Source: Pseudoxanthomonas sp. YR558 (GTDB lineage: Bacteria > Pseudomonadota > Gammaproteobacteria > Xanthomonadales > Xanthomonadaceae). From it: a stretch of 64,000 nt of DNA. The stretch spans positions 372,001 through 436,000 of the forward strand of contig NZ_FPCI01000002.1 in the NCBI RefSeq assembly GCF_900116385.1, in the 5' to 3' direction. Position 1 is the stretch's first letter. Each line of letters starts with the position of its first letter. Under the pieces are notes generated by a model. It was not told where the DNA came from and made no database searches. It worked only from the letters and a program-made list of their open reading frames with translations. Positions 4,212 through 29,759 of this stretch are shown here, piece by piece. The translations under genes were made by a program, and so were the position numbers.

Positions 4212-4232
4212 GCGAAGCGCCGACGAGGTTCG

Positions 4233-4811
4233 TTACTCCGGCGAAGAGGCCGCAGGTGGCGAACCCGAGCGCCAGCGGCGCGTGGTGCGCTGGAAGAACT
4301 GGCTGTTGGGGATCTGCAGCACGGTGTCGCCGCGCAGCGCGTCTTCTTCCAGCAGCGTGGTGTAGAGCAGATTGATATCGATCACCCGGCCGCGAAGGCC
4401 GGGCTTGTCGCCGTTCTCGAGTACTTCGATATGGTCGTGCACGCGGAACGGACGGGTGGTCAGGATCAGCACGCTGCAGAAGATGTTCGACAGCACGCTC
4501 CATGCGGCGAAGAAAGCCACGGCAGCAACGGCGGTGAAGCCGGTGAGCGCCGTCCACAACACGCTGCCTGACACGCCAAGCCGGCCCAGCGCGAGCATAA
4601 ACGCCGACATGTAGACCAGCACGCCCAGCAGCCGGCGTGCGCTGACCGCGACCTGTGCCGGGAGGTGGTAGCTGTCGCAGATGCGGCGCACGATGATGCG
4701 CAGCACGCGCAAGAGCAGCCAAGCACCGAGCAGGATCGCCATCGCCTGAGCGATGGGGATGGCGACATTCGCGCCTTCGCGCAGCCAGCCCGCGAGCTGG
4801 GGCCAGCTCAT
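4233..4811 (-). CDS. Small-conductance mechanosensitive channel (MscS family), short form
   Basis: 192 residues, shorter than Escherichia coli MscS (286). Three hydrophobic segments are visible: residues 12-36, 55-75 and 80-105. The third carries the glycine/alanine-rich pore helix (LTGFTAVAAVAFFAAWSVLSN) followed by the conserved RPFRVHDHIEV start of the beta domain and an NSQFF motif near residue 170. The C-terminal alpha/beta portal domain is largely absent (ends RWRSGSPPAASSPE), so the gating vestibule is reduced. The start at 4811 gives a short periplasmic N-terminus; an upstream in-frame start at 4841 exists. Acts in the inner membrane to release osmolytes upon hypo-osmotic shock. Confidence 0.85.
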   Translation of the reverse strand: MSWPQLAGWLREGANVAIPIAQAMAILLGAWLLLRVLRIIVRRICDSYHLPAQVAVSARRLLGVLVYMSAFMLALGRLGVSGSVLWTALTGFTAVAAVAFFAAWSVLSNIFCSVLILTTRPFRVHDHIEVLENGDKPGLRGRVIDINLLYTTLLEEDALRGDTVLQIPNSQFFQRTTRRWRSGSPPAASSPE

Positions 4812-4895
4812 CGGTAGGCCTGCCGGAAAGGGTGCGCGCACGAGACGCCGGTGTAGGTCTTCATGCGGAAAGGGTGACCGCGTACGCCTGCAGGG

Positions 4896-5336
4896 TCAAG
4901 GTTCGAAGGGATGCGCCTTGCCGCACGCGTAGACGTGGTTGTAGTCGCTGGACATGCATTGGTAGAAATCGCGCCGGACGCCCGTGGCGGCTTCGCAGTC
5001 CTGCACGGTGAGTATGCCCAGCAGTGCCTTCAGCGCGGGTGTGGCGGCATCGTAGGCCGCTTGCGTCATGTAGCCGCCGCGCAGGTTCTTCTCGCCCACT
5101 TCCAGCATCGTCTCGACGCCCCAGCGCGCGTTCTCGACGGCCTTGCCGCAGGCGAGCGGAGGCGCCTCTTCCTGCACGCTCGACAGATGTTCCGCGATCG
5201 CCGTGACATCGGCCTGAACCGTGGCAGGCAATGGGCGAGGTGGCGCGTCTTCCCCTGCCCGTGCACCGGACGCAACCACCAGCAGCGCCGAGAGTGAGAG
5301 AAAGAGCAGGCTGCGAAAGGCTTGGCGAGGCGCCAT
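4896..5336 (-). CDS. Hypothetical exported protein
   Basis: 146 residues starting MAPRQAFRSLLF. Residues 1-26 form a signal peptide ending SGARA-GED. The mature part is helical, with four cysteines (LACGK, QDCEA, QCMSS, YACGK) that could form two disulfides in the periplasm. I do not recognise a family. The frame is open for a further 65 codons upstream, but this start gives an obvious signal sequence. It is divergent from the OB-fold exported protein gene at 5530. Confidence 0.6.
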   Translation of the reverse strand: MAPRQAFRSLLFLSLSALLVVASGARAGEDAPPRPLPATVQADVTAIAEHLSSVQEEAPPLACGKAVENARWGVETMLEVGEKNLRGGYMTQAAYDAATPALKALLGILTVQDCEAATGVRRDFYQCMSSDYNHVYACGKAHPFEP

Positions 5337-5529
5337 GGATTTGATGAATGATTGAAACAGGTTGTGGATTGTAGGGCGGAAGGCCGCGGTACGGTGGCCG
5401 GCGCGCGGGCGCTTGTGGAGGTTCTCGCTGCTTGCAAGAATGCACGGGCGCCGGAGCAGGCGCAGGTGCTGGCAGGAAGCGGCACCCGTCGTACCGGATC
5501 GCCAGACACTTCCACTATGTGAGGACCAC

Positions 5530-6366
5530 ATGACCTACAAGCTACTTGCCGCCATCGCGCTCGCATTGTCGAGCGTGGCGCCCGCCGCCCTGGCGGGTGA
5601 ATGCGAGGACAACTTCAGCAAGTCCGGCAGCATCTTCTCCGGCACCGATTTCTCCAGCCGCGTCACCGTTCCCGATCTGTCCGTCAAGGATGCGATGGGC
5701 CAGGTTCGGGGCATCATGATCGGCGAGAAGATGGACGTGATCACCGAAGACGCGGAAACCGGCACGATGCTGGTGGAACAGCGCTCCACCGGCACCACGC
5801 GCGCCATCCCCACCTTGATCGCCATCAGCGGCGAGGGCAACGCGGCGACGGTGCAGATGACGGTGAAGACCGAGAAGGGCCAGATCGCAAAAGCGGACGC
5901 GATGCGCCCTTACATGTGCCAGCTGCTGGCCAAGATCAAGGGCGGCAAGGAAGGCCGCGCCGCCGCCGCGCAGGGCGCGAAGACCCAGAACAACGCGGAC
6001 GTAACGGTGAAGGACGTCTATGTGTTCTCGCGTGAGATCGCACGCGAGGCAAAAGGCAACGCGGTCGCCGTGACGGCGCGCCACAAGGGTCGCCACTATG
6101 CGTTGCGCGGCCGAGTGGATTACGTGCAGGAAGACGGCGAGGACTACAACGTCTCGTTCGAGATCCCGCAGCCCGGTTCTGGGCTGTTGCAGGTGCCGGG
6201 CGACAACGAGCCGCGCGTGGGTGTGGCCTGCCTGTTCAAGCCCAACCAGCTGGCCAACGTGCTGACCTTCCGCAAGGGCGACAAGGTGACGTTCAAGGGC
6301 CAGTTCCTGCGTTACGATGACTTCAAGCGCGTGCTCTGGTTGCAGAACTGCACGCAGACGCGTTGA
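5530..6366 (+). CDS. Exported protein with C-terminal OB-fold (tRNA_anti-like) domain
   Basis: 278 residues. Signal peptide 1-22 (cleavage after ALA-GEC). Residues about 23-140 form a first domain (KDAMGQVRGIMIGEKMDV, then beta strands). Residues about 160-278 show the tRNA_anti-like OB-fold pattern: an ALRGRVDYV strand, CLFKPNQ, then GDKVTFKGQFLRY and a VLWLQNC end strand. This periplasmic OB-fold family is widespread and of unknown role; the name reflects fold, not tRNA binding. A bidirectional terminator follows directly. The start is supported by a GAGGACC a few bases upstream. Confidence 0.7.
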   Translation: MTYKLLAAIALALSSVAPAALAGECEDNFSKSGSIFSGTDFSSRVTVPDLSVKDAMGQVRGIMIGEKMDVITEDAETGTMLVEQRSTGTTRAIPTLIAISGEGNAATVQMTVKTEKGQIAKADAMRPYMCQLLAKIKGGKEGRAAAAQGAKTQNNADVTVKDVYVFSREIAREAKGNAVAVTARHKGRHYALRGRVDYVQEDGEDYNVSFEIPQPGSGLLQVPGDNEPRVGVACLFKPNQLANVLTFRKGDKVTFKGQFLRYDDFKRVLWLQNCTQTR

Positions 6367-6381
6367 CGCGCACACCCTGCG

Positions 6382-6417
6382 AACGAGAAAGGCGCCCGTA
6401 GGGGCGCCTTTCTCGTT
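6382..6417. terminator. Bidirectional intrinsic terminator
   Basis: A 15-bp perfect stem (6382-6396 with 6403-6417, one further C-G pair at 6397/6402) with a GTAG loop and A/T runs on both flanks lies between two convergent genes (ends 6366 and 6430), so it can serve both. Confidence 0.85.
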
Positions 6418-6429
6418 GGGCCACTTGGA

Positions 6430-6852
6430 TTAATTGGCCTGGCGGCGGTAGACGCCCACATTGGTGTAGCGGCGACCGTCGCTCAAGTGGCCATGCATGC
6501 GGATCACCAATGTGTCGTCGTCGACGAGTTCGCGCTCCGACCATTGCACTTCCTGGCCATCGTGCCACGTCGTCGAGTGGAGCTGCGTGGGCGAGACGGA
6601 CTCGAAGCTGAGCGCATCCGCGTGCGGTGTGCTGTGATACGGGTACTGCACACCGTCGGCGCGTCCGTCGAACGCGACGCGGTAGCGTTTGCCGTTGGCA
6701 CTCAGCCATTCCGATGCGATAGATAGTTTCCCGTCCTTTGCGCATGACAGCCTGTAGCGCGCGCTGCGCGGCGGACGCCCGAGTTGGTAGTCGCACTGCT
6801 CGGGAAGCAAGTGCCAAGTACCGACGAAGGCGGAAGCGGCGTGGGTCGTCAT
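6430..6852 (-). CDS. Hypothetical protein, lipocalin/DUF-like small beta protein
   Basis: 140 residues starting MTTHAASAFVGTWHLLPEQC, with an AAGGAG 8 nt upstream that decides the start against longer readings. The sequence alternates short strands (RYRLSCAKDGKLSIASEW, KRYRVAFDGR, TLVIRMHGHL) and opens with an FVGTWxL motif seen in many small lipocalin-like proteins that bind hydrophobic ligands. No signal peptide is visible, so it is probably cytoplasmic. Function unknown; the lipocalin-like fold is an inference from strand pattern only. Confidence 0.6.
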   Translation of the reverse strand: MTTHAASAFVGTWHLLPEQCDYQLGRPPRSARYRLSCAKDGKLSIASEWLSANGKRYRVAFDGRADGVQYPYHSTPHADALSFESVSPTQLHSTTWHDGQEVQWSERELVDDDTLVIRMHGHLSDGRRYTNVGVYRRQAN

Positions 6853-7063
6853 CAGCGCTCCTTGCGCGAGCAGCAATCGAGGGCATCCCCGGGGCCACCA
6901 TGCTAGCGAGGACCCCCGGGGCGCCGGCTGCCAACGTCGTCGCAATTTCACGCACGGACGGGGCGTAGAGCGAGATCCCCTGGCGAATGCCTACCGCAAA
7001 TGTGACGAGGAGTGCGACGTACTGCCCAGCATGGCGCGCACAGGACCTTCAGGCGGTAAGCAC

Positions 7064-7696
7064 TCAACGCGTGCGGGAGGTCAACGCATCGATCAGGCCA
7101 TCGGTAGTGAGGATGGCGTGGGCATAGGTCGGTGCATTGATCTCATGTGCCGCGTGCATCGCGGCCGTGCTGGCCGCAGCGGTGGCGTCACGGACGAGGG
7201 TGACGTGGTAGCCGAGTTCCGAAGCAAACCGACCAGTTGTTTCAATGCAGGTGTTGGCGATCAATCCCACCAGGATGACGTGGGTGATGCGGTGCTGCTT
7301 CAAGAGATAGTCCAGATCGGTGTTGGCGAAGCCGCTGCTGCCCCAGTGCTCCTTGACCATCATGTCGCCGGGCTGGGGGACGAAGTCCGGATGCCATTCG
7401 GCGCCCCAGCTGTCCTTCGCGAACGGCTGTACGCGCGCCGCGCCTAGCTGGTAGGGCGTGGGATGGTCCCAGCCCTTGAAGTCGTCTGGCTCAAAACGAT
7501 GGTGTGGGACGAAGAACACGGGCAACCCTGCCTGACGTACGCAGGCCACGACGGCACGCAGGTGTGCATGCAGGTCGACGCTTCGGGCGACCTCCGCGAC
7601 GAGCGGCCAGAGCTTGCCTCCTTCCGAGAGGAAATCGTTGTACGGATCGATGAAGAGCAGCGCGGTGCGCCCGGCGGGGTATCCCTGCATGGACAT
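7064..7696 (-). CDS. Isochorismatase-like cysteine hydrolase
   Basis: 210 residues. The family's catalytic Asp is in the first strand (LLFIDPYNDF, about residue 17), Lys in the MVKEHWGSSGF segment and the nucleophilic Cys in LIANTCIETTGR. The family hydrolyses amide or vinyl-ether bonds in small molecules (nicotinamide, isochorismate, N-carbamoyl amines, biuret). The long insertion with HHRFEPDDFKGW and the missing PQxDF motif argue against a true nicotinamidase. The start is fixed by AAAGGA upstream; a second ATG lies two codons inside. It stands alone, about 100 bp behind the ECF sigma factor gene on the same strand. Exact substrate unknown. Confidence 0.85.
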   Translation of the reverse strand: MSMQGYPAGRTALLFIDPYNDFLSEGGKLWPLVAEVARSVDLHAHLRAVVACVRQAGLPVFFVPHHRFEPDDFKGWDHPTPYQLGAARVQPFAKDSWGAEWHPDFVPQPGDMMVKEHWGSSGFANTDLDYLLKQHRITHVILVGLIANTCIETTGRFASELGYHVTLVRDATAAASTAAMHAAHEINAPTYAHAILTTDGLIDALTSRTR

Positions 7697-15359: not shown

Positions 15360-15755
15360 ATGAGCAATCCCTCCGCCTTCACCCGCCTCGCCAAGAAAGC
15401 CTCCACGTTCACCGGCCGCCCCGCGTGTTTCGCGCTCGCGCTGGGGACGATCGTGGTGTGGGCGGTCACCGGGCCACTGTTCGGTTTCAGCGATACCTGG
15501 CAGCTGGTCATCAATACCGGCACGACGATCATCACCTTCCTGATGGTGTTCCTGATCCAGAACACGCAGAACCGCGATACCGAGGCGATGCAGATCAAGC
15601 TGGATGAACTGATCCGCGTCTCGCGCAGCGCCAACAACGCACTGCTGGACCTGGAGGAACTGGAAGAGAAGGAACTCGACGACCTGCGCGCGCATTACGA
15701 AGACATGGCGCGGCAGGCGCGCGAGGTGCAGCAGGGGAAGGCGAAGCGGGGATAG
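15360..15755 (+). CDS. Low-affinity iron permease family protein
   Basis: 131 residues. Matches the low-affinity Fe/Cu permease family: an N-terminal FTRLAKKASTFTGRPACFALAL segment, two membrane helices (about 22-42 and 52-72, with WAVTGPLFGFSDTWQLVINTGTTIITFLMVFLIQNTQNRD) and a charged cytoplasmic coiled tail (DEL..LEELEEKELDDLRAHYEDMA). Inner membrane. Bacterial members are named after fungal Fet4, and iron transport is not firmly established for them. The last 40 codons are repeated at 96% identity behind the next gene, see the repeats at 15634 and 16496. Confidence 0.85.
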   Translation: MSNPSAFTRLAKKASTFTGRPACFALALGTIVVWAVTGPLFGFSDTWQLVINTGTTIITFLMVFLIQNTQNRDTEAMQIKLDELIRVSRSANNALLDLEELEEKELDDLRAHYEDMARQAREVQQGKAKRG

Positions 15756-15760
15756 CGGGG
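15634..15760 (+). repeat. 127-bp direct repeat, copy 1 (3' end of the permease gene)
   Basis: Copy 1 covers the end of the permease gene and 5 bp past its stop. It aligns without gaps to 16496-16622 (offset 862) with five differences, at 15641, 15659, 15667, 15713 and 15722. Four are synonymous and one changes Glu to Ala. Confidence 0.9.
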
Positions 15761-15844
15761 ATAGCACCGCAATCGGAGACCTATTGGCGGCCCCGAACCT
15801 TCAGGCGCGTGCAACTACAATTCACGATGGGTCAGTCAAGAGCT

Positions 15845-15873
15845 TTGACTGCGAAGATTCCGGAAAATAATGA
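15845..15873 (+). promoter_or_regulatory. Sigma70-type promoter of the lipoprotein gene
   Basis: TTGACT (15845-15850), a 17-bp spacer and TAATGA (15868-15873). The -35 is inside a small dyad (AGTCAA at 15834-15839 and TTGACT). It lies in the A+T-richer insert and fits the lipoprotein gene that starts 55 bp downstream. Confidence 0.6.
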
Positions 15874-15928
15874 GTTGGGATATCGGAATTGCACCGGTAG
15901 CCGACTCGATTGAGGAGGGGTGAGGCAA

Positions 15929-16480
15929 ATGTTTCTTGGTCGTCTATGTTCTATGTTAATGGTTCTGACTGTGCTGGCCGGTTGCAGAGTGGGTCCGCAG
16001 AATGAAACTGGATCCCGCGCGGGCTTGCCTGCGTGGGCGCAATGTCAGGCGAGCAATTCGGAACATGATCCTTGCCAGGCTTCGATGTATTCGCTGGTCA
16101 CATCGCCGAGTTCGTACGACGGGATGTATGTCGAGTTCATCGGATACTTTGATTCCAGAGGGTCGCGGCTACTGTTCGTGAGTCGTGACGCTGCCGCCAG
16201 TTCTGACTACTTGTCATCGCTACTCATGGAGTCGACATTCGATGATCCAGCTGGCTACTACCAAGTAGACGCCAAGTTTGCTCACGACGTGCAGGACAGT
16301 GGCCTTGCGTCTGGCGTGCAGCGGCAGGTCGGACGCTTGACAAGTATTCGGCTGACCCGTGTTGGCACATCCATAGACACACTTTCAGAGAAGTGCGGTG
16401 ATGACTCGTGTGAGGCCTACTTCATAAATGGAGTCGCACCCGCAGTGCGTGAAAAGGCTCTCGCCCCGCCGCCCCAATAG
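15929..16480 (+). CDS. Hypothetical lipoprotein on a lower-GC insert
   Basis: 183 residues. Start chosen at the ATG 8 nt after a strong GAGGAGGGG. The signal sequence ends in a lipobox (VLAGC) about residue 19, so the protein is probably lipid-anchored. The mature part has WAQCQASNSEHDPCQASMYSL and later EKCGDDSCEAYFINGVAP, two cysteine pairs probably disulfide-bonded; the YVEFIGYFDS strand suggests an OB-like beta barrel. I do not recognise the family. Codon use (many A/T third positions) clearly differs from the neighbours, and the gene sits between two copies of the permease 3' end, both signs of acquisition. Confidence 0.7.
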   Translation: MFLGRLCSMLMVLTVLAGCRVGPQNETGSRAGLPAWAQCQASNSEHDPCQASMYSLVTSPSSYDGMYVEFIGYFDSRGSRLLFVSRDAAASSDYLSSLLMESTFDDPAGYYQVDAKFAHDVQDSGLASGVQRQVGRLTSIRLTRVGTSIDTLSEKCGDDSCEAYFINGVAPAVREKALAPPPQ

Positions 16481-16495
16481 CCCGGTGGAATGAGG

Positions 16496-16622
16496 ACAAC
16501 GCGCTGCTGGACCTGGAGGAGCTGGAAGCGAAGGAACTCGACGACCTGCGCGCGCATTACGAAGACATGGCGCGACAGGCGCGTGAGGTGCAGCAGGGGA
16601 AGGCGAAGCGGGGATAGCGGGG
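16496..16622 (+). pseudogene. 127-bp direct repeat, copy 2: orphan 3' end of an iron permease gene
   Basis: The segment reads in frame as the last 40 codons of the permease (from DNALLDLEELEAKELDD to the same TAG) but has no 5' part: it begins 15 bp after the stop codon of the lipoprotein gene. Differences from copy 1 are mostly synonymous, so both descended from functional coding sequences. Its downstream flank runs straight into a fragment of the acetyltransferase 3' end, so this is probably the original junction. Confidence 0.85.
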
Positions 16623-16625
16623 CAC

Positions 16626-16662
16626 GCCATCCCTACACCCACCGCCTCTCCATCCGGTAGTT
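16626..16662. repeat. 37-bp direct repeat, copy A (orphan 3' end of the acetyltransferase gene)
   Basis: Matches 16787-16823 with a single difference (offset 161). It contains the reverse complement of the last nine codons plus stop of the GNAT gene, but is cut off from that gene by the palindromic element. Confidence 0.85.
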
Positions 16663-16773
16663 CGTAGGCTGGGATGGAGCAACGCGGAATCCCAGCGTCG
16701 CGATGTGTGGTGGTTCATGGCGCGTCATCGTCCATGGACGCGGGGATTGCGCTCCGCTTCATCCCAGCCTACG
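16663..16773. repeat. Intergenic palindromic element
   Basis: An imperfect inverted repeat: the left arm from CGTAGGCTGGGATG at 16663 and the right arm ending CATCCCAGCCTACG at 16773 pair over about 30 bp with a few mismatches around an unpaired middle. It looks like a REP/MITE-type non-autonomous element. It lies between the two 37-bp copies of the acetyltransferase 3' end. Confidence 0.75.
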
Positions 16774-16786
16774 GAGGCCCAGCGGC

Positions 16787-16823
16787 GCCATCCCTACACC
16801 CACCGCTTCTCCATCCGGTAGTT
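16787..16823. repeat. 37-bp direct repeat, copy B (true 3' end of the acetyltransferase gene)
   Basis: The active copy, covering the last nine codons and stop of the GNAT gene on the minus strand plus 7 bp beyond. It encodes NYRMEKRWV, while copy A would encode Arg for the Lys. Confidence 0.85.
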
Positions 16824-17264
16824 GTGGATGTCCACGCCGTCCATCACGAGGTCGTTGCGGCCGAGCAGGGTGAAGCCGCGGCGTTCGAACAGGGGACGGG
16901 CGAGTTCGCTGGCTTCGACGAAGATCCGACGCAGGCCGCGGCGCCGGGCATGCGCCTCGATGGCGGCATACAGCTGCGAGCCCACGTGCAGGCCTTCGGC
17001 TTCCGGCGCGGTGTAGAGCATGTCGAGGTGGCCGTCGGCCTCCAGGTCGGCGAACCCGAGCACCGGGCCCGCATCATCCTGCGCCACCACCACGTAGCGT
17101 CCGTCGCCGCAGCGCGCCGCGGTTTCAGCGACATCGGCGGTGGCTGCCCACACTGCGACCTGCTCGGGCGTGTACGCGCGCGGCCCGTAGTGGCGTACCG
17201 AGCGCGCGTACAGCGCGGTCAGCGCGGCGGCATCGGTGGGGCAGTAGGGGCGGAGGGTGGGCAT
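16794..17264 (-). CDS. GNAT family N-acetyltransferase
   Basis: 156 residues. GNAT fold: LRPYCPTDAAALTALYARSV (beta1-alpha1), YVVVAQDDAGPVLGFADLEADGHLDMLYTAPEAEGLHVGSQLYAAIEAHARRRG spread over strands 2-4 and the acetyl-CoA loop (the G-V-GS-L pattern), ending with ARPLFERRGFTLLGR. The acceptor is unknown; ElaA/YafP-like small-molecule or peptide acetyltransferases are similar. The six-unit repeat array lies immediately upstream of its start, and no clear promoter or ribosome binding site is seen between the array and the ATG. Confidence 0.88.
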   Translation of the reverse strand: MPTLRPYCPTDAAALTALYARSVRHYGPRAYTPEQVAVWAATADVAETAARCGDGRYVVVAQDDAGPVLGFADLEADGHLDMLYTAPEAEGLHVGSQLYAAIEAHARRRGLRRIFVEASELARPLFERRGFTLLGRNDLVMDGVDIHNYRMEKRWV

Positions 17265-17268
17265 GACC

Positions 17269-17520
17269 CGTTCTTCTCACACTAAGGGTGTCGCGAGGAC
17301 CAAAAAGGTCCGTTCTTCTCTCACTAAGAATGTCGCGAGGCCGAAGAAGGTCCTCTCTTCTCTCACTAAGAGTGTCGCGAGGACCGAAAAGGTCCGTTCT
17401 TCTCACACTAAGGGTATCGCGAGGCCGAAAAAGGTCCTCTCTTCTCTCACTAACGGTGTCGCGAGGACCAAAAAGGTCCGTTCTGCTCTCACTAAGGATG
17501 TCGCGTCAGGCAAAAAGCCT
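17269..17520. repeat. Six tandem 42-bp repeats with conserved hairpins
   Basis: Units begin at 17269, 17311, 17353, 17395, 17437 and 17479 with no gaps. Each holds a T/C-rich tract, TCACTAAG, TGTCGCGA and a small hairpin around an A-rich loop. Hairpins alternate between GGACC-GGTCC (units 1, 3, 5) and GAGGCC-GGTCCTC (units 2, 4), so the real period is an 84-bp dimer; unit 6 has AGGC-GCCT, a changed but still paired stem. The unit length is a multiple of three, so both strands stay open, but the peptides look arbitrary. It lies between the end of the TIGR01777 gene and the start of the acetyltransferase gene, both on the minus strand. Confidence 0.92.
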
Positions 17521-26629: not shown

Positions 26630-27220
26630 ATGGATCTGGCGCTCTTCGACTTCGACGGCACGCTGACCACGCGCGAGACGTTTCCGGATTTCATGCGCTA
26701 CGCCGTCGCGCGGCCGCGGCTGCTGGTCGGCGGCGTGCTGCTGGCACCGGTGGTGTTCGGCTATCGCCGGGGTTGGATAGCCGGCAATCCAACCCGCGCC
26801 AGCATCGTGCAGGTGGGATTGCGCGGTGTGGATGCCTCGCGCCTGCGTGTGCAGGGCGAAGCTTTCGCGCGCGAGGTGCTGCCGGACGTGCTGCGTCCGG
26901 AGGCGATGGCGCGCCTGGCGTGGCACCGCGAGCGCGGCGATCGCATCGTCGTGGTGTCGGGTGGGCTGGATGTCTATCTCGCGCCGTGGTGCGCAACGCA
27001 AGGCGTCGAACTGCTGTGTTCGGTGTTGGCCGAACGCAATGGGCGCATCACCGGCTATGCCGGGGCGCAATGCGTCGGTGAGGAGAAGGTGCGCCGGGTG
27101 CGCGCGCTGTGCGACCCGCAGGCCTACGCCGCTATTCACGCTTACGGCGATACGCACGAAGACAACGCCATGCTGGCGATGGCGCATCACCGGACCTATC
27201 GCGGGCATTCCGTGGCCTGA
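26630..27220 (+). CDS. HAD-IB family phosphatase
   Basis: 196 residues. HAD motif I DFDGTLT (residues 7-13), motif II VVSGG and motif III/IV AYGDTHEDNAML. Member of the phosphoserine-phosphatase-like HAD-IB group, with the family's capping helix region at about 45-90. Substrate unknown; it may dephosphorylate a sugar phosphate or lipid headgroup. Begins 4 bp after soxR, so both may be on one transcript. Confidence 0.88.
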   Translation: MDLALFDFDGTLTTRETFPDFMRYAVARPRLLVGGVLLAPVVFGYRRGWIAGNPTRASIVQVGLRGVDASRLRVQGEAFAREVLPDVLRPEAMARLAWHRERGDRIVVVSGGLDVYLAPWCATQGVELLCSVLAERNGRITGYAGAQCVGEEKVRRVRALCDPQAYAAIHAYGDTHEDNAMLAMAHHRTYRGHSVA

Positions 27221-27234
27221 CGGCTCTGCTTTTT

Positions 27235-27367
27235 TGTAGGAGCGACGTCAGTCGCGACCGCAAACCTCGCATGTCGTGGCGCTTTCTCCGTGCGAACCAC
27301 CTACGCATCCATCCTGATCGTTCCACAGAGCGGCGGGCGTGCGGTCGCGACTGACGTCGCTCCTACA
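27235..27367. repeat. Palindromic element with 27-bp perfect arms (GTAGGAGCGACGT family, copy 1)
   Basis: Arms 27235-27261 and 27341-27367 are perfect inverted repeats around a 79-bp unpaired middle. The same core, with TAAG for TCAG, recurs at 29631-29742. It sits between the HAD and oxidoreductase genes (convergent) and could form a long stem or terminate both. Confidence 0.85.
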
Positions 27368-27376
27368 GAGAAGCGG

Positions 27377-28417
27377 TCAGTCCACGGGAAGGCTGCGCTG
27401 TTCCTCGCTGCTTTGCGCCCCCAGCTCGATCAGCCGCATGACGTCCAGCGCCTGCTGCGGCGTGACCGGCGGTGCGGTGCCCTGCAGGACGGCATCGCGG
27501 AACGCGGCGTAGTAGCGGCGATAGTCGCCTGCCTCGGCATGGGCGACTTCCGCGACCAGCCGTCCCTCGCGCTCGCGCACGAGTTCGCCCGCGCGCGTGT
27601 CCACGCCCCAGCCCGGCGCGCCGGGTACCACGCCCGCGCGCAGTTGGTCCTCCTGCACATCCAGCCCGTGCTTGAGGTAGCTGCCGCGCGTACCGTGCAC
27701 GGCGAAGCGCAACCCATTCCCCGCCACCAGCGTGCCCGCATGCAGGTGCACGCGGTGGGTGGGATAGCGCAGGGTCGCGTGGGCGTAGTCCGGCGCCTGC
27801 GCACCGTCGCGCAGCCGCGCTATGTCGGCGCTGATCGCCTCCGGCAGCCCGAACAGCTGCACCGCCTGGTCGATCAGGTGCGGCCCCAGGTCATACCAGA
27901 GGCCGCCGCCGGGCGCGTCGTGTTCGCGCCAACGGTCCTGCACGACGGGGCGGAAACGGTCGAAGTGCGAATGGAATTCCGCCACGCGGCCGAGCGTGCC
28001 GTCGCCGACCAGGCGCTGCACGGTCAGGAAGTCCGCATCCCAGCGACGGTTCTGGAACACGCTGACGAGGCGGCCCGCACGGCGGGCGGCTTCGATGACA
28101 TCGCGCGCTTCCGCCAACGTCACCGTGAACGGCTTGTCGACAACCACGTGCTTGCCGCGTTCCAGCGCGGCGATCGCCAGCGGCGCGTGTGAGGCATTGG
28201 GCGATGCGATCACCACCACGTCGACGGCAGGATCGGCGAAGGCCGCATCGGCGTCACCGACCACCTGCACATCAGGCCAGTCCGCGTGCACCTTGCCGGC
28301 GTCGCGCGAGACGACGGTGTGCAGGGCGAAACCAGGCGTCGCCTCGATCAGTGGCGCATGGAACACCCTGCCGACGAAGCCGTAGCCGATGAGGGCGACG
28401 CGAAGGGGAGTGATCAT
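27377..28417 (-). CDS. Gfo/Idh/MocA family oxidoreductase
   Basis: 346 residues. Rossmann domain with ALIGYGFVGRVFHAPL at the N-terminus, then VIASPNASHAPLAIAALERGKHVVVDKPFTVT, with the Lys-Pro active motif. The C-terminal alpha/beta domain has GGGLWYDLGPHLIDQAVQLFG, the conserved DxGxHxxD pattern. NAD(P)-dependent dehydrogenases of cyclic polyols, sugars or related molecules; exact substrate unknown. A TAAGAT -10 lies about 38 bp upstream of the start. Confidence 0.92.
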   Translation of the reverse strand: MITPLRVALIGYGFVGRVFHAPLIEATPGFALHTVVSRDAGKVHADWPDVQVVGDADAAFADPAVDVVVIASPNASHAPLAIAALERGKHVVVDKPFTVTLAEARDVIEAARRAGRLVSVFQNRRWDADFLTVQRLVGDGTLGRVAEFHSHFDRFRPVVQDRWREHDAPGGGLWYDLGPHLIDQAVQLFGLPEAISADIARLRDGAQAPDYAHATLRYPTHRVHLHAGTLVAGNGLRFAVHGTRGSYLKHGLDVQEDQLRAGVVPGAPGWGVDTRAGELVREREGRLVAEVAHAEAGDYRRYYAAFRDAVLQGTAPPVTPQQALDVMRLIELGAQSSEEQRSLPVD

Positions 28418-28589
28418 GCGAAGGCGTGCGAAGAGAAGGTGAGGACATCTTAGGCGCTTCGCGCATGTTGATCACGCGTGCACGTGCATGAACCCCGCGC
28501 AACACGTAACTGAATGCCACGGTCTCTTTCACGTGCGCTGTACGGCGGCGCACGGAGACTGGCATCGCGATACGAAAAGGAGGAACTCC

Positions 28590-28946
28590 ATGAAGACTGC
28601 CAACCATCGTTCGTTGCTGACCGCCGCCCTCGCGACGGCGTTGTTGTTCTCCGCCGGCCATGCGCTCGCGGACAATCCGCCACCGAACGAGCCCGAGGAG
28701 AATACGCAGAACGACTCCTCGCAGCCCGTGGGCGATGCCTGGATCACCACCAAGGTGAAGGCCGACCTGTTGGCCACCGAGAACGTTTCGGGCCTCGATA
28801 TCAAGGTCGAAACCGTTGATGGCGTGGTGACCCTGACCGGCGCCGTCGCCAACCAGGCGCAGAAGGACAAGGCGGTCGCGGTCGCCAAGCAAATCAAGGG
28901 CGTGACCCGCGTCGATGCCAGCGGCCTGACGCTCGCCTCGAAGTAA
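28590..28946 (+). CDS. BON domain-containing exported protein
   Basis: 118 residues. Signal peptide 1-27 (ALA-DNP), a Pro/Glu/Asn-rich linker, then one BON domain (about 48-118): DAWITTKVKADLLATENVSGLDIKVETVDGVVTLTG...ITRVDAS. BON domains bind phospholipids and occur in stress-induced periplasmic proteins such as OsmY. Very good AAAAGGAGG ribosome binding site. Single-BON form, shorter than OsmY (two domains). Confidence 0.9.
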   Translation: MKTANHRSLLTAALATALLFSAGHALADNPPPNEPEENTQNDSSQPVGDAWITTKVKADLLATENVSGLDIKVETVDGVVTLTGAVANQAQKDKAVAVAKQIKGVTRVDASGLTLASK

Positions 28947-29067
28947 TCCCCCGACAGGGTGTGGCACGGAGCGGGCGTATCCCAACGTAGGATGCGCCCG
29001 CTCCTTCATGAAGGGCGCGGCGCGCCGCGCGCAGCAAGGCTGTCCATCCGTTTCAAGGAGCGAACCC

Positions 29068-29616
29068 ATGAACCGTCTTTCCGTGATGCGCGGTGTGTTG
29101 GCCGTGTCGCTCGTCCTCGGCGGCGCCGTAGCCCATGCCGCCGAGCCGGTAACCTCGGTCCCGCAACTCGATATCTCCCGCTACGCGGGCCAGTGGTACG
29201 AGATCGCGCATCTGCCGATGTCGTTCCAGAAGCAGTGCGTGGGCGACATCACCGCACGCTACTCACTCGATGCCCCCGGCAAGGTCGGCGTGCTCAACGC
29301 GTGCAAGACGAAGGACGGCGGCACCGACCAGGCGCAGGGCACCGCGCGGCCGGTGCAGGGCCATCCTGGCCGCCTCGAGGTGCGCTTCGCGCCGGAATGG
29401 CTGTCGTGGCTGCCCTGGGTATGGGCCGACTACTGGGTGATCGCACTCGACCCCGGTTACCAGTGGGCTGTCGTGGGCGAGCCGGATCGCGACTACCTAT
29501 GGATCCTGTCGCGCGAACCGTCGATGGATCGCACCCAGTTCGAACAGCTCAAGGCGAAAGCCGAGGCCATGGGATACGACCTGTCGCCGCTGATCGTGGC
29601 GGCGCCGCTGCGGTAG
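29068..29616 (+). CDS. blc: Bacterial lipocalin (Blc-type)
   Basis: 182 residues. A signal peptide (about 1-24, ending AHA) without a lipobox Cys, so it is exported but not obviously lipid-anchored, unlike Escherichia coli Blc. Lipocalin signature GQWYEIAHLPMSFQKQC near residue 43, then GDITARYS, YWVIALDPGYQWAVVGEPDRDYLWILSR, the family's barrel-closing segment. Binds fatty acids or lysophospholipids in the envelope. Ribosome binding site AAGGAG. Confidence 0.92.
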   Translation: MNRLSVMRGVLAVSLVLGGAVAHAAEPVTSVPQLDISRYAGQWYEIAHLPMSFQKQCVGDITARYSLDAPGKVGVLNACKTKDGGTDQAQGTARPVQGHPGRLEVRFAPEWLSWLPWVWADYWVIALDPGYQWAVVGEPDRDYLWILSREPSMDRTQFEQLKAKAEAMGYDLSPLIVAAPLR

Positions 29617-29630
29617 CGGTACTGCCTGTA

Positions 29631-29742
29631 TAGGAGCGACGTAAGTCGCGACCGAAACAACGCAACCACCCGGATCAGGAAGCATGCATTCGGCCGCAGT
29701 ATCGGCCGTTGTGGCGTGCGGTCGCGACTTACGTCGCTCCTA
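29631..29742. repeat. Palindromic element (GTAGGAGCGACGT family, copy 2)
   Basis: Perfect 24-bp arms, 29631-29654 and 29719-29742, sharing the core TAGGAGCGACGT..GTCGCGACCG with copy 1 at 27235 but with TAAG in place of TCAG. Lies between blc and pagL, which are convergent. Confidence 0.85.
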
Positions 29743-29759
29743 CAAGGGTGGCGCGGCGC

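Follow-up and report, generated by a model that had tools for sequence, protein, structure and literature searches.

A double scar of gene capture at an iron permease/acetyltransferase junction in Pseudoxanthomonas

The orphan immunity gene arrays of the Vibrio cholerae T6SS have been attributed, in the account given in PMC5361080, to a process that resembles homology-facilitated illegitimate recombination. In E. coli, as reported in PMC3240628, circularised DNA that integrated by single crossing-over gave rise to partial duplications of lacZ, 109–950 bp long in 14 sequenced clones, and the 127-bp duplication that we describe here falls inside that range. Homology-facilitated illegitimate recombination in its classical form, as set out in the same report, predicts a deletion in the recipient, whereas our locus carries a duplication and no deletion, which does not fit the classical process. 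The locus lies in a 64,000-nucleotide stretch of a Pseudoxanthomonas genome (hereafter the window) and carries a double scar of gene capture, both real and unusual. A lipoprotein gene is enclosed by two copies (P1 and P2) of the 3' end of an iron permease gene, and a REPIN is enclosed by two copies (G1 and G2) of the 3' end of the convergent acetyltransferase gene, in the order P1-lipoprotein-P2-CA-G1-REPIN-G2 (Table 1). Gene capture at this locus is well supported by the lines of evidence below.

Table 1. Features of the permease/acetyltransferase junction, in window positions
Feature	Position	Strand	Basis
Permease, low-affinity iron permease family (PF04120), intact	15360..15755	+	Pfam E 3e-54; 3' end is P1
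P1, first copy of permease 3' end plus 5 bp	15634..15760	+	127-bp repeat, 96%
Promoter-like TTGACT-N17-TAATGA, ahead of lipoprotein gene	15845..15873	+	sequence; consensus match only
Lipoprotein gene, 183 aa from ATG, lipobox LAGC, Cys19; orphan, immunity-type candidate	15929..16480	+	ORF and homologues
P2, orphan second copy of permease 3' end	16496..16622	+	127-bp repeat
P2-CA-G1 empty-site core, 167 bp, uninterrupted permease/acetyltransferase junction	16496..16662	.	relatives' arrangement
G1, orphan copy of acetyltransferase 3' end (final 30 bp of gene and 8 bp past it)	16625..16662	-	one difference, Lys to Arg
REPIN, two GTAG-headed palindromes in inverted orientation	16663..16773	.	inverted repeat
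G2, acetyltransferase's own 3' end	16786..16823	-	38-bp repeat
GNAT acetyltransferase gene, convergent with permease	16794..17264	-	Pfam PF13673 E 1e-16

P1 consists of the final 122 bp of the permease gene, whose stop codon ends at 15755, and 5 bp beyond it. It recurs without gaps 862 bp downstream as P2, with 122 of 127 positions identical; coordinates, length and spacing are exactly those of the first-pass annotation of this DNA, and its count of five differences, four of them synonymous, was reproduced as well. The differing positions in P1 are 15641, 15659, 15667, 15713 and 15722, and the sole nonsynonymous one (15667/16529) exchanges Glu for Ala. The pair was found with E 2e-53 in a repeat search of the window, and a 400-kb sample of the same genome contained no direct repeat of at least 100 bp and at least 90% identity within 12 kb; on these two grounds a chance origin of the 127-bp repeat was ruled out. 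Listed at E ≤1e-3 and within 20 kb, leaving aside starts at 17.2–17.6 kb (a tandem array), the other repeats of the window were the adjacent 38-bp pair G1/G2 and four short direct or inverted ones at 27–30 kb. The array itself (17268–17505, 42-bp period, 5.7 copies) stands between the GNAT and epimerase genes, and repeats spaced in multiples of 42 bp were also seen downstream of the permease in G001, G022, G008 and G015. The short direct and inverted repeats at 27210–29745 (29–53 bp) are without the palindrome head of the window REPIN.

The insert between the permease copies (15761–16495, 735 bp) has a GC content of 55.1% against 67.6% for the window, and the lipoprotein gene, the only ORF of at least 60 aa lying wholly inside it, has a GC3 of 0.58. 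These values, together with the motif that starts at 15845, bear out the earlier description of an A/T-richer lipoprotein gene behind a TTGACT-N17-TAATGA sequence. The insert had also been proposed to be foreign, and this agrees with its distribution. Its DNA gave only two partial matches, of 31–34 bases, in 37 other Pseudoxanthomonas genomes; no close homologue of the protein was found in the same 37, two of which (G030 and G036) have remote ones, and in a family sample of 394 other genomes the best match reaches 32%. Among 5.8 billion proteins we found seven homologues at 54–98% identity and one more by profile. The 98% homologue, P0001, is encoded on a contig of 240,897 bases, and the longest contig behind P0002–P0008 has 24,846 bases (P0005). 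Searches for the lipoprotein in viral contigs and in genome_contigs, which like the plasmid search may omit records very near the window's genome, produced 23 and 31 pattern matches, none of them confirmed, and plasmids gave no match.

The lipoprotein matches no Pfam family above cut-off, no NCBIfam family and no PADLOC entry, and its AlphaFold model has a mean pLDDT of 46.9. When 11 sequences were aligned (the window protein, P0007 and nine of 13 remote homologues, G173, G433, G126 and G093 being left out), Cys19, C39, C49, G65, F83 and D87 proved invariant. With a LAGC lipobox and a Cys19 that is present in 11 of 11 aligned sequences, the protein is predicted to be exported, as an orphan immunity lipoprotein would be. 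We regard it as a horizontally acquired orphan, possibly of immunity type.

What the junction looks like without this insert is visible in relatives. Permease matches were found in 23 of 61 genomes, the window's own genome included, and in a tree of 13 genomes the nearest is G020, 95% identical over three nearby genes. The acetyltransferase is kept downstream of the permease in nine of the 20 relatives' loci fetched, and at four of these nine (L035, L040, L041 and L042) the two genes are directly convergent with 28–85 bp between match ends, which is the empty site that had been predicted: the gene arrangement is that of P2-CA-G1, with a different spacer. Another four have about 1 kb between permease and GNAT, which in G021 is a hydrolase-like gene according to Pfam and in the other three looks alike by eye. 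The remaining one, G022, has REPINs and a Y1 transposase gene at this place; in G020 the same elements follow the permease, with no GNAT match. Judging from these empty, ~1-kb and REPIN/Y1 states, the junction is a place where cargo comes and goes.

The repeat of the permease 3' end is absent from all 20 relatives' permease loci and from all 79 loci of another set, where the remaining matches (L063, L094 and L117) measure 21–32 bp after a trivial match caused by a 20-bp overlap of query and subject had been discounted. Three loci (L063, L064 and L065) belong to both sets, and an 80th, L099, was dropped for having no downstream sequence. Conservation of the arrangement across the genus, which the first-pass annotation had named as a sign of an old local duplication, is ruled out by these counts, and among the loci compared the duplication is seen in its own genome only. 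No strain with the permease and lipoprotein genes but without the second copy was found among the genomes compared.

Integrative elements typically restore the 3' end of the gene into which they insert. The locus might accordingly be the remnant of a site-specific element whose attachment site was the permease 3' end, restored on integration, and a cargo that differs by species (the hydrolase-like gene, REPINs with Y1 transposase, the lipoprotein) is compatible with this. However, the 735-bp insert holds a single ORF of at least 60 aa, no integrase was recognised among five proteins scanned at the locus, and the permease end is repeated at none of the 20 relatives' loci, and we consider such an origin very improbable.

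The synonymous differences between P1 and P2 had been taken to show that both copies evolved in working permease genes, an argument that turns out to be weak. At least four synonymous changes out of five would have a probability of 0.012–0.042 if all five were neutral and arose after the duplication. Parsimony on the nearest relatives (G020, G014 and G001) assigns the changes at 15641 and 15659, both synonymous, to P1 and the other three, one of them nonsynonymous, to P2, with the uncertainty that the P1 bases at these two positions are also found in some more distant relatives. For P2 alone, two synonymous changes out of three have a probability of 0.14–0.25 and are unremarkable for a free copy. 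On the orphan side, P2 and G1 have four derived changes between them, of which two are nonsynonymous, as expected of a local duplicate decaying neutrally; the working copies have two derived changes. The synonymous-site pattern, the P2 changes and the Lys to Arg change of G1 do not separate import from local decay.

P1 and P2 are more alike than either copy is to any of 24 relatives' permease loci, the best of which match at 110/118 (G017) and at 114/124 and 113/124 (the sister species G020). The donor, if there was one, was therefore probably close, although the stretch is short. The likeness suggests either a close donor or a local duplication, and is not strong evidence for a stretch of this length. 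Under local duplication, foreign DNA would have been caught at a staggered break, the filling-in of overhangs doubling 127 bp here and 38 bp in another event, after which the orphan copies decayed. The genome has a match to Ku, the two permease copies are closer to each other than to any relative compared, and the orphan side has gathered more derived changes and both of the nonsynonymous ones, all of which would fit. On the other hand, a stagger of 127 nt is long, four synonymous changes in five are unusual for neutral divergence after duplication (though the three in P2 are not), and the 400-kb sample has no similar duplication of at least 100 bp at 90%. We think it unlikely that the repeat arose in this way.

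The 38-bp duplication of the convergent GNAT gene end and the REPIN within it were missed in the first-pass annotation. The repeat starts two bases (CA) after P2, and its copies have one difference (97%). The enclosed element is a REPIN in that its GTAG-headed palindromes are inverted and its family flanks RAYT-type (Y1 transposase) genes in G020 and G022. These transposase genes score 21.8 and 23.2 bits, near the Pfam cut-off of 23. Against the same locus of G020 and G022 the window REPIN gives six matches of 112–119 bp at 81–87% and one of 110 bp at 75%, and shorter or inverted weaker matches are also present there. A pattern of the palindrome with 2 mismatches allowed occurs in 13 of 38 genomes (25 times in G020, 17 in G022 and 13 in G014). 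The scan of the window's own genome returned four matches, two in the REPIN itself and two isolated sites with 2 mismatches, and the REPIN is the only paired element of its family that was found in this way; one of the isolated sites has a 36-bp match to a single palindrome, at C1:1277970. A literature search on RAYT, REP and Pseudoxanthomonas found no paper on the subject, judged by title. Transposition of the REPIN as the cause of the 38-bp duplication is not favoured, as known IS200/IS605 members, in the description of PMC2817692, make no larger target duplications. Either the REPIN was imported, or it is a relic from a time when the locus was already occupied.

If it is a relic, both scars could have a single cause. 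The ancestor would have been an occupied permease-lipoprotein-REPIN-acetyltransferase locus, and the 167-bp P2-CA-G1 core a fragment of an empty allele inserted between lipoprotein gene and REPIN. One illegitimate insertion would then yield both duplications, with the outer joints at 16495/16496 and 16662/16663 coming from the same event, and P2 and G1 are indeed contiguous, with a clean empty-site junction between them. An occupied ancestor is plausible, since the sister species and G022 carry REPINs with Y1 transposase at this locus. Removal of the core would also bring the lipoprotein stop to 15 bp before the REPIN, a common position for such an element. Such an insertion would nevertheless have to be short and non-homologous despite homology on both sides and would need a separate clean insertion of the lipoprotein gene, while the adjacency of P2 and G1 is equally expected if the host core simply stayed in place. 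We consider this alternative unlikely.

The explanation that we prefer is an insertion-duplication, in which one-sided homologous recombination at the end of the permease gene brought in the foreign lipoprotein gene via a close strain, and in which a second event, or the other half of the donor, accounts for the REPIN; we would give this account an even chance of being correct. The arrangement is that of an insertion-duplication: cargo between direct 127-bp copies, an empty site at four loci and no repeat at 20. The starting state would have been an empty permease/acetyltransferase junction, P-CA-G. A piece of DNA from a close strain, in which a lipoprotein gene, foreign in its ultimate origin, stood behind a permease 3' end, would have recombined homologously at the 127-bp permease end and been joined without homology on its other side; in the simplest form, a circularised fragment would have integrated by single crossing-over. 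The permease would have stayed intact, the lipoprotein gene and its promoter-like site would have been gained, and the host's permease end would have been orphaned as P2. The REPIN, together with the 38-bp duplication at the end of the acetyltransferase gene, would have come from a further event of this kind or from the remaining half of the same donor after it had broken. The genome matches ComEC and Ku, which makes DNA uptake and end-joining possible, ComEC being widespread (10 of 14 control genomes).

In this account the donor is hypothetical and the mode of crossing-over is what we infer from the arrangement. The integration of a donor segment that was first proposed for the left scar survives in part: the foreign insert, the empty sites and the non-conserved arrangement speak for it, while its synonymous-site argument does not carry and it leaves the 38-bp duplication unexplained. 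As for the right scar, a second event, the other half of the donor and the insertion of an empty-allele fragment cannot be told apart on present strains.

The remote homologues of the lipoprotein gene give a possible hint of where it came from before it reached this junction. They were found in 12 of 394 other family genomes sampled (G030 and G036 belonging to the same genus) and in one further genome of the order, 13 loci in all. At six of the 13 an RHS-type gene, confirmed by Pfam, lies upstream on the same strand: overlapping the homologue in G030, 6 bp away in G189, 0.2 kb in G093, 2 kb in G036, where the homologue belongs to an array of lipoprotein-like genes, 2.3 kb in G124 and 3.3 kb in G217. 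The homologue matches of G036, G217 and G093 are weak (E 2e-4 to 1e-3), three of the seven loci with E ≤1e-5 are RHS-linked, and the homology to the RHS-linked lipoproteins is remote, 19–30% over the alignment. No RHS gene was seen within the stretch read at the other seven loci (G234, G431, G069, G378, G173, G433 and G126), as judged by motif scan and ORF starts; one ORF beside the G378 homologue and one beside that of G431 were put to Pfam, with no match. The G433 match is near a contig end, and that of G126, within an ORF of 400 aa, seems spurious. RHS repeats are present somewhere in every one of the 13 genomes, so some adjacency is expected by chance; taking 15 RHS genes per 4 Mb, we estimate it at about 1% for each locus.

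The homologue of G124, whose match runs across one stop, lies between two 846-bp copies (90% identical) of one region, and a 251-bp part of this region is found again within the RHS ORF upstream. This would be the same picture as at the window locus, with a different anchor gene. In the sequence of this RHS locus (L170) the duplication and the homologue span 4225–7558, and the third, partial copy is at 2444–2694. In G036 (L178, 6514–9076) four small lipoprotein-like ORFs form an array directly 3' of the RHS gene. The G069 homologue is an integron cassette between repeats that we take to be attC-like, and the whole 10.5 kb of that locus (L174) is an integron-like cassette array with 17 near-identical repeats of this kind. 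An integron cassette was rejected for the window lipoprotein: attC sites bear the motifs GTTRRRY and RYYYAAC, and neither occurs in 15701–16640. The neighbours of the window gene are the permease, GNAT, YjbR and epimerase genes, with no adjacent cognate toxin gene, and the three RHS_repeat matches of its own genome are ~271 kb away or on another contig. The lipoprotein possibly stems from Rhs (polymorphic toxin) loci as an orphan immunity-type protein, an immunity role being our hypothesis from this context.

A broader scenario, which we put forward as speculative and rather doubtful, is that mobile cysteine-bearing lipoproteins, immunity genes in Rhs arrays and integron cassettes, also spread to ordinary loci by one-sided homologous insertion. 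The locus would then be the fossil of one molecule integrated in two halves, the lipoprotein gene at the permease end and the REPIN at the acetyltransferase end, with the 167-bp empty site intact between them. If gene capture proceeded as we propose, it would show that a conserved gene end can serve putative orphan immunity genes as an anchor at sites distant from toxin loci. An intact empty site enclosed by duplicated 3' ends also offers a readable scar by which such captures might be spotted in other genomes. As the lipoprotein has no counterpart in NCBIfam or PADLOC and no Pfam match above cut-off, its family would be a defined new target for testing.

Compared with the systems described so far, the locus shares with the V. 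cholerae T6SS arrays, as presented in PMC5361080, a homology anchor on part of a gene, a non-homologous cargo and a recipient 3' end shifted downstream. There the anchor is an effector gene, whereas here it is a permease that has stayed intact, and next to it is another duplication, which encloses a REPIN. The single crossing-over described for E. coli (PMC3240628) likewise leaves foreign DNA flanked by a partial duplication of a homologous gene end, but concerns laboratory conjugation and a small non-replicative plasmid, while the event at our locus is read from sequence. As in the REP/RAYT systems with GTAG-type REPs covered by PMC2817692 and PMC3733652, the window has GTAG-headed palindromes in an inverted pair, of a family that stands beside Y1 transposase genes in G020 and G022; unlike them, it has a single REPIN, no transposase gene at the locus and a flanking 38-bp duplication. 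Rhs polymorphic toxin loci with orphan immunity genes, in the accounts of PMC10539506 and PMC3482391, resemble the setting of some remote homologues, which lie downstream of RHS genes and once between RHS-derived duplicates, whereas the window lipoprotein has no nearby RHS gene. The class of process is known. What is new lies in the permease as anchor, in the empty site nested between the scars and in the lipoprotein family.
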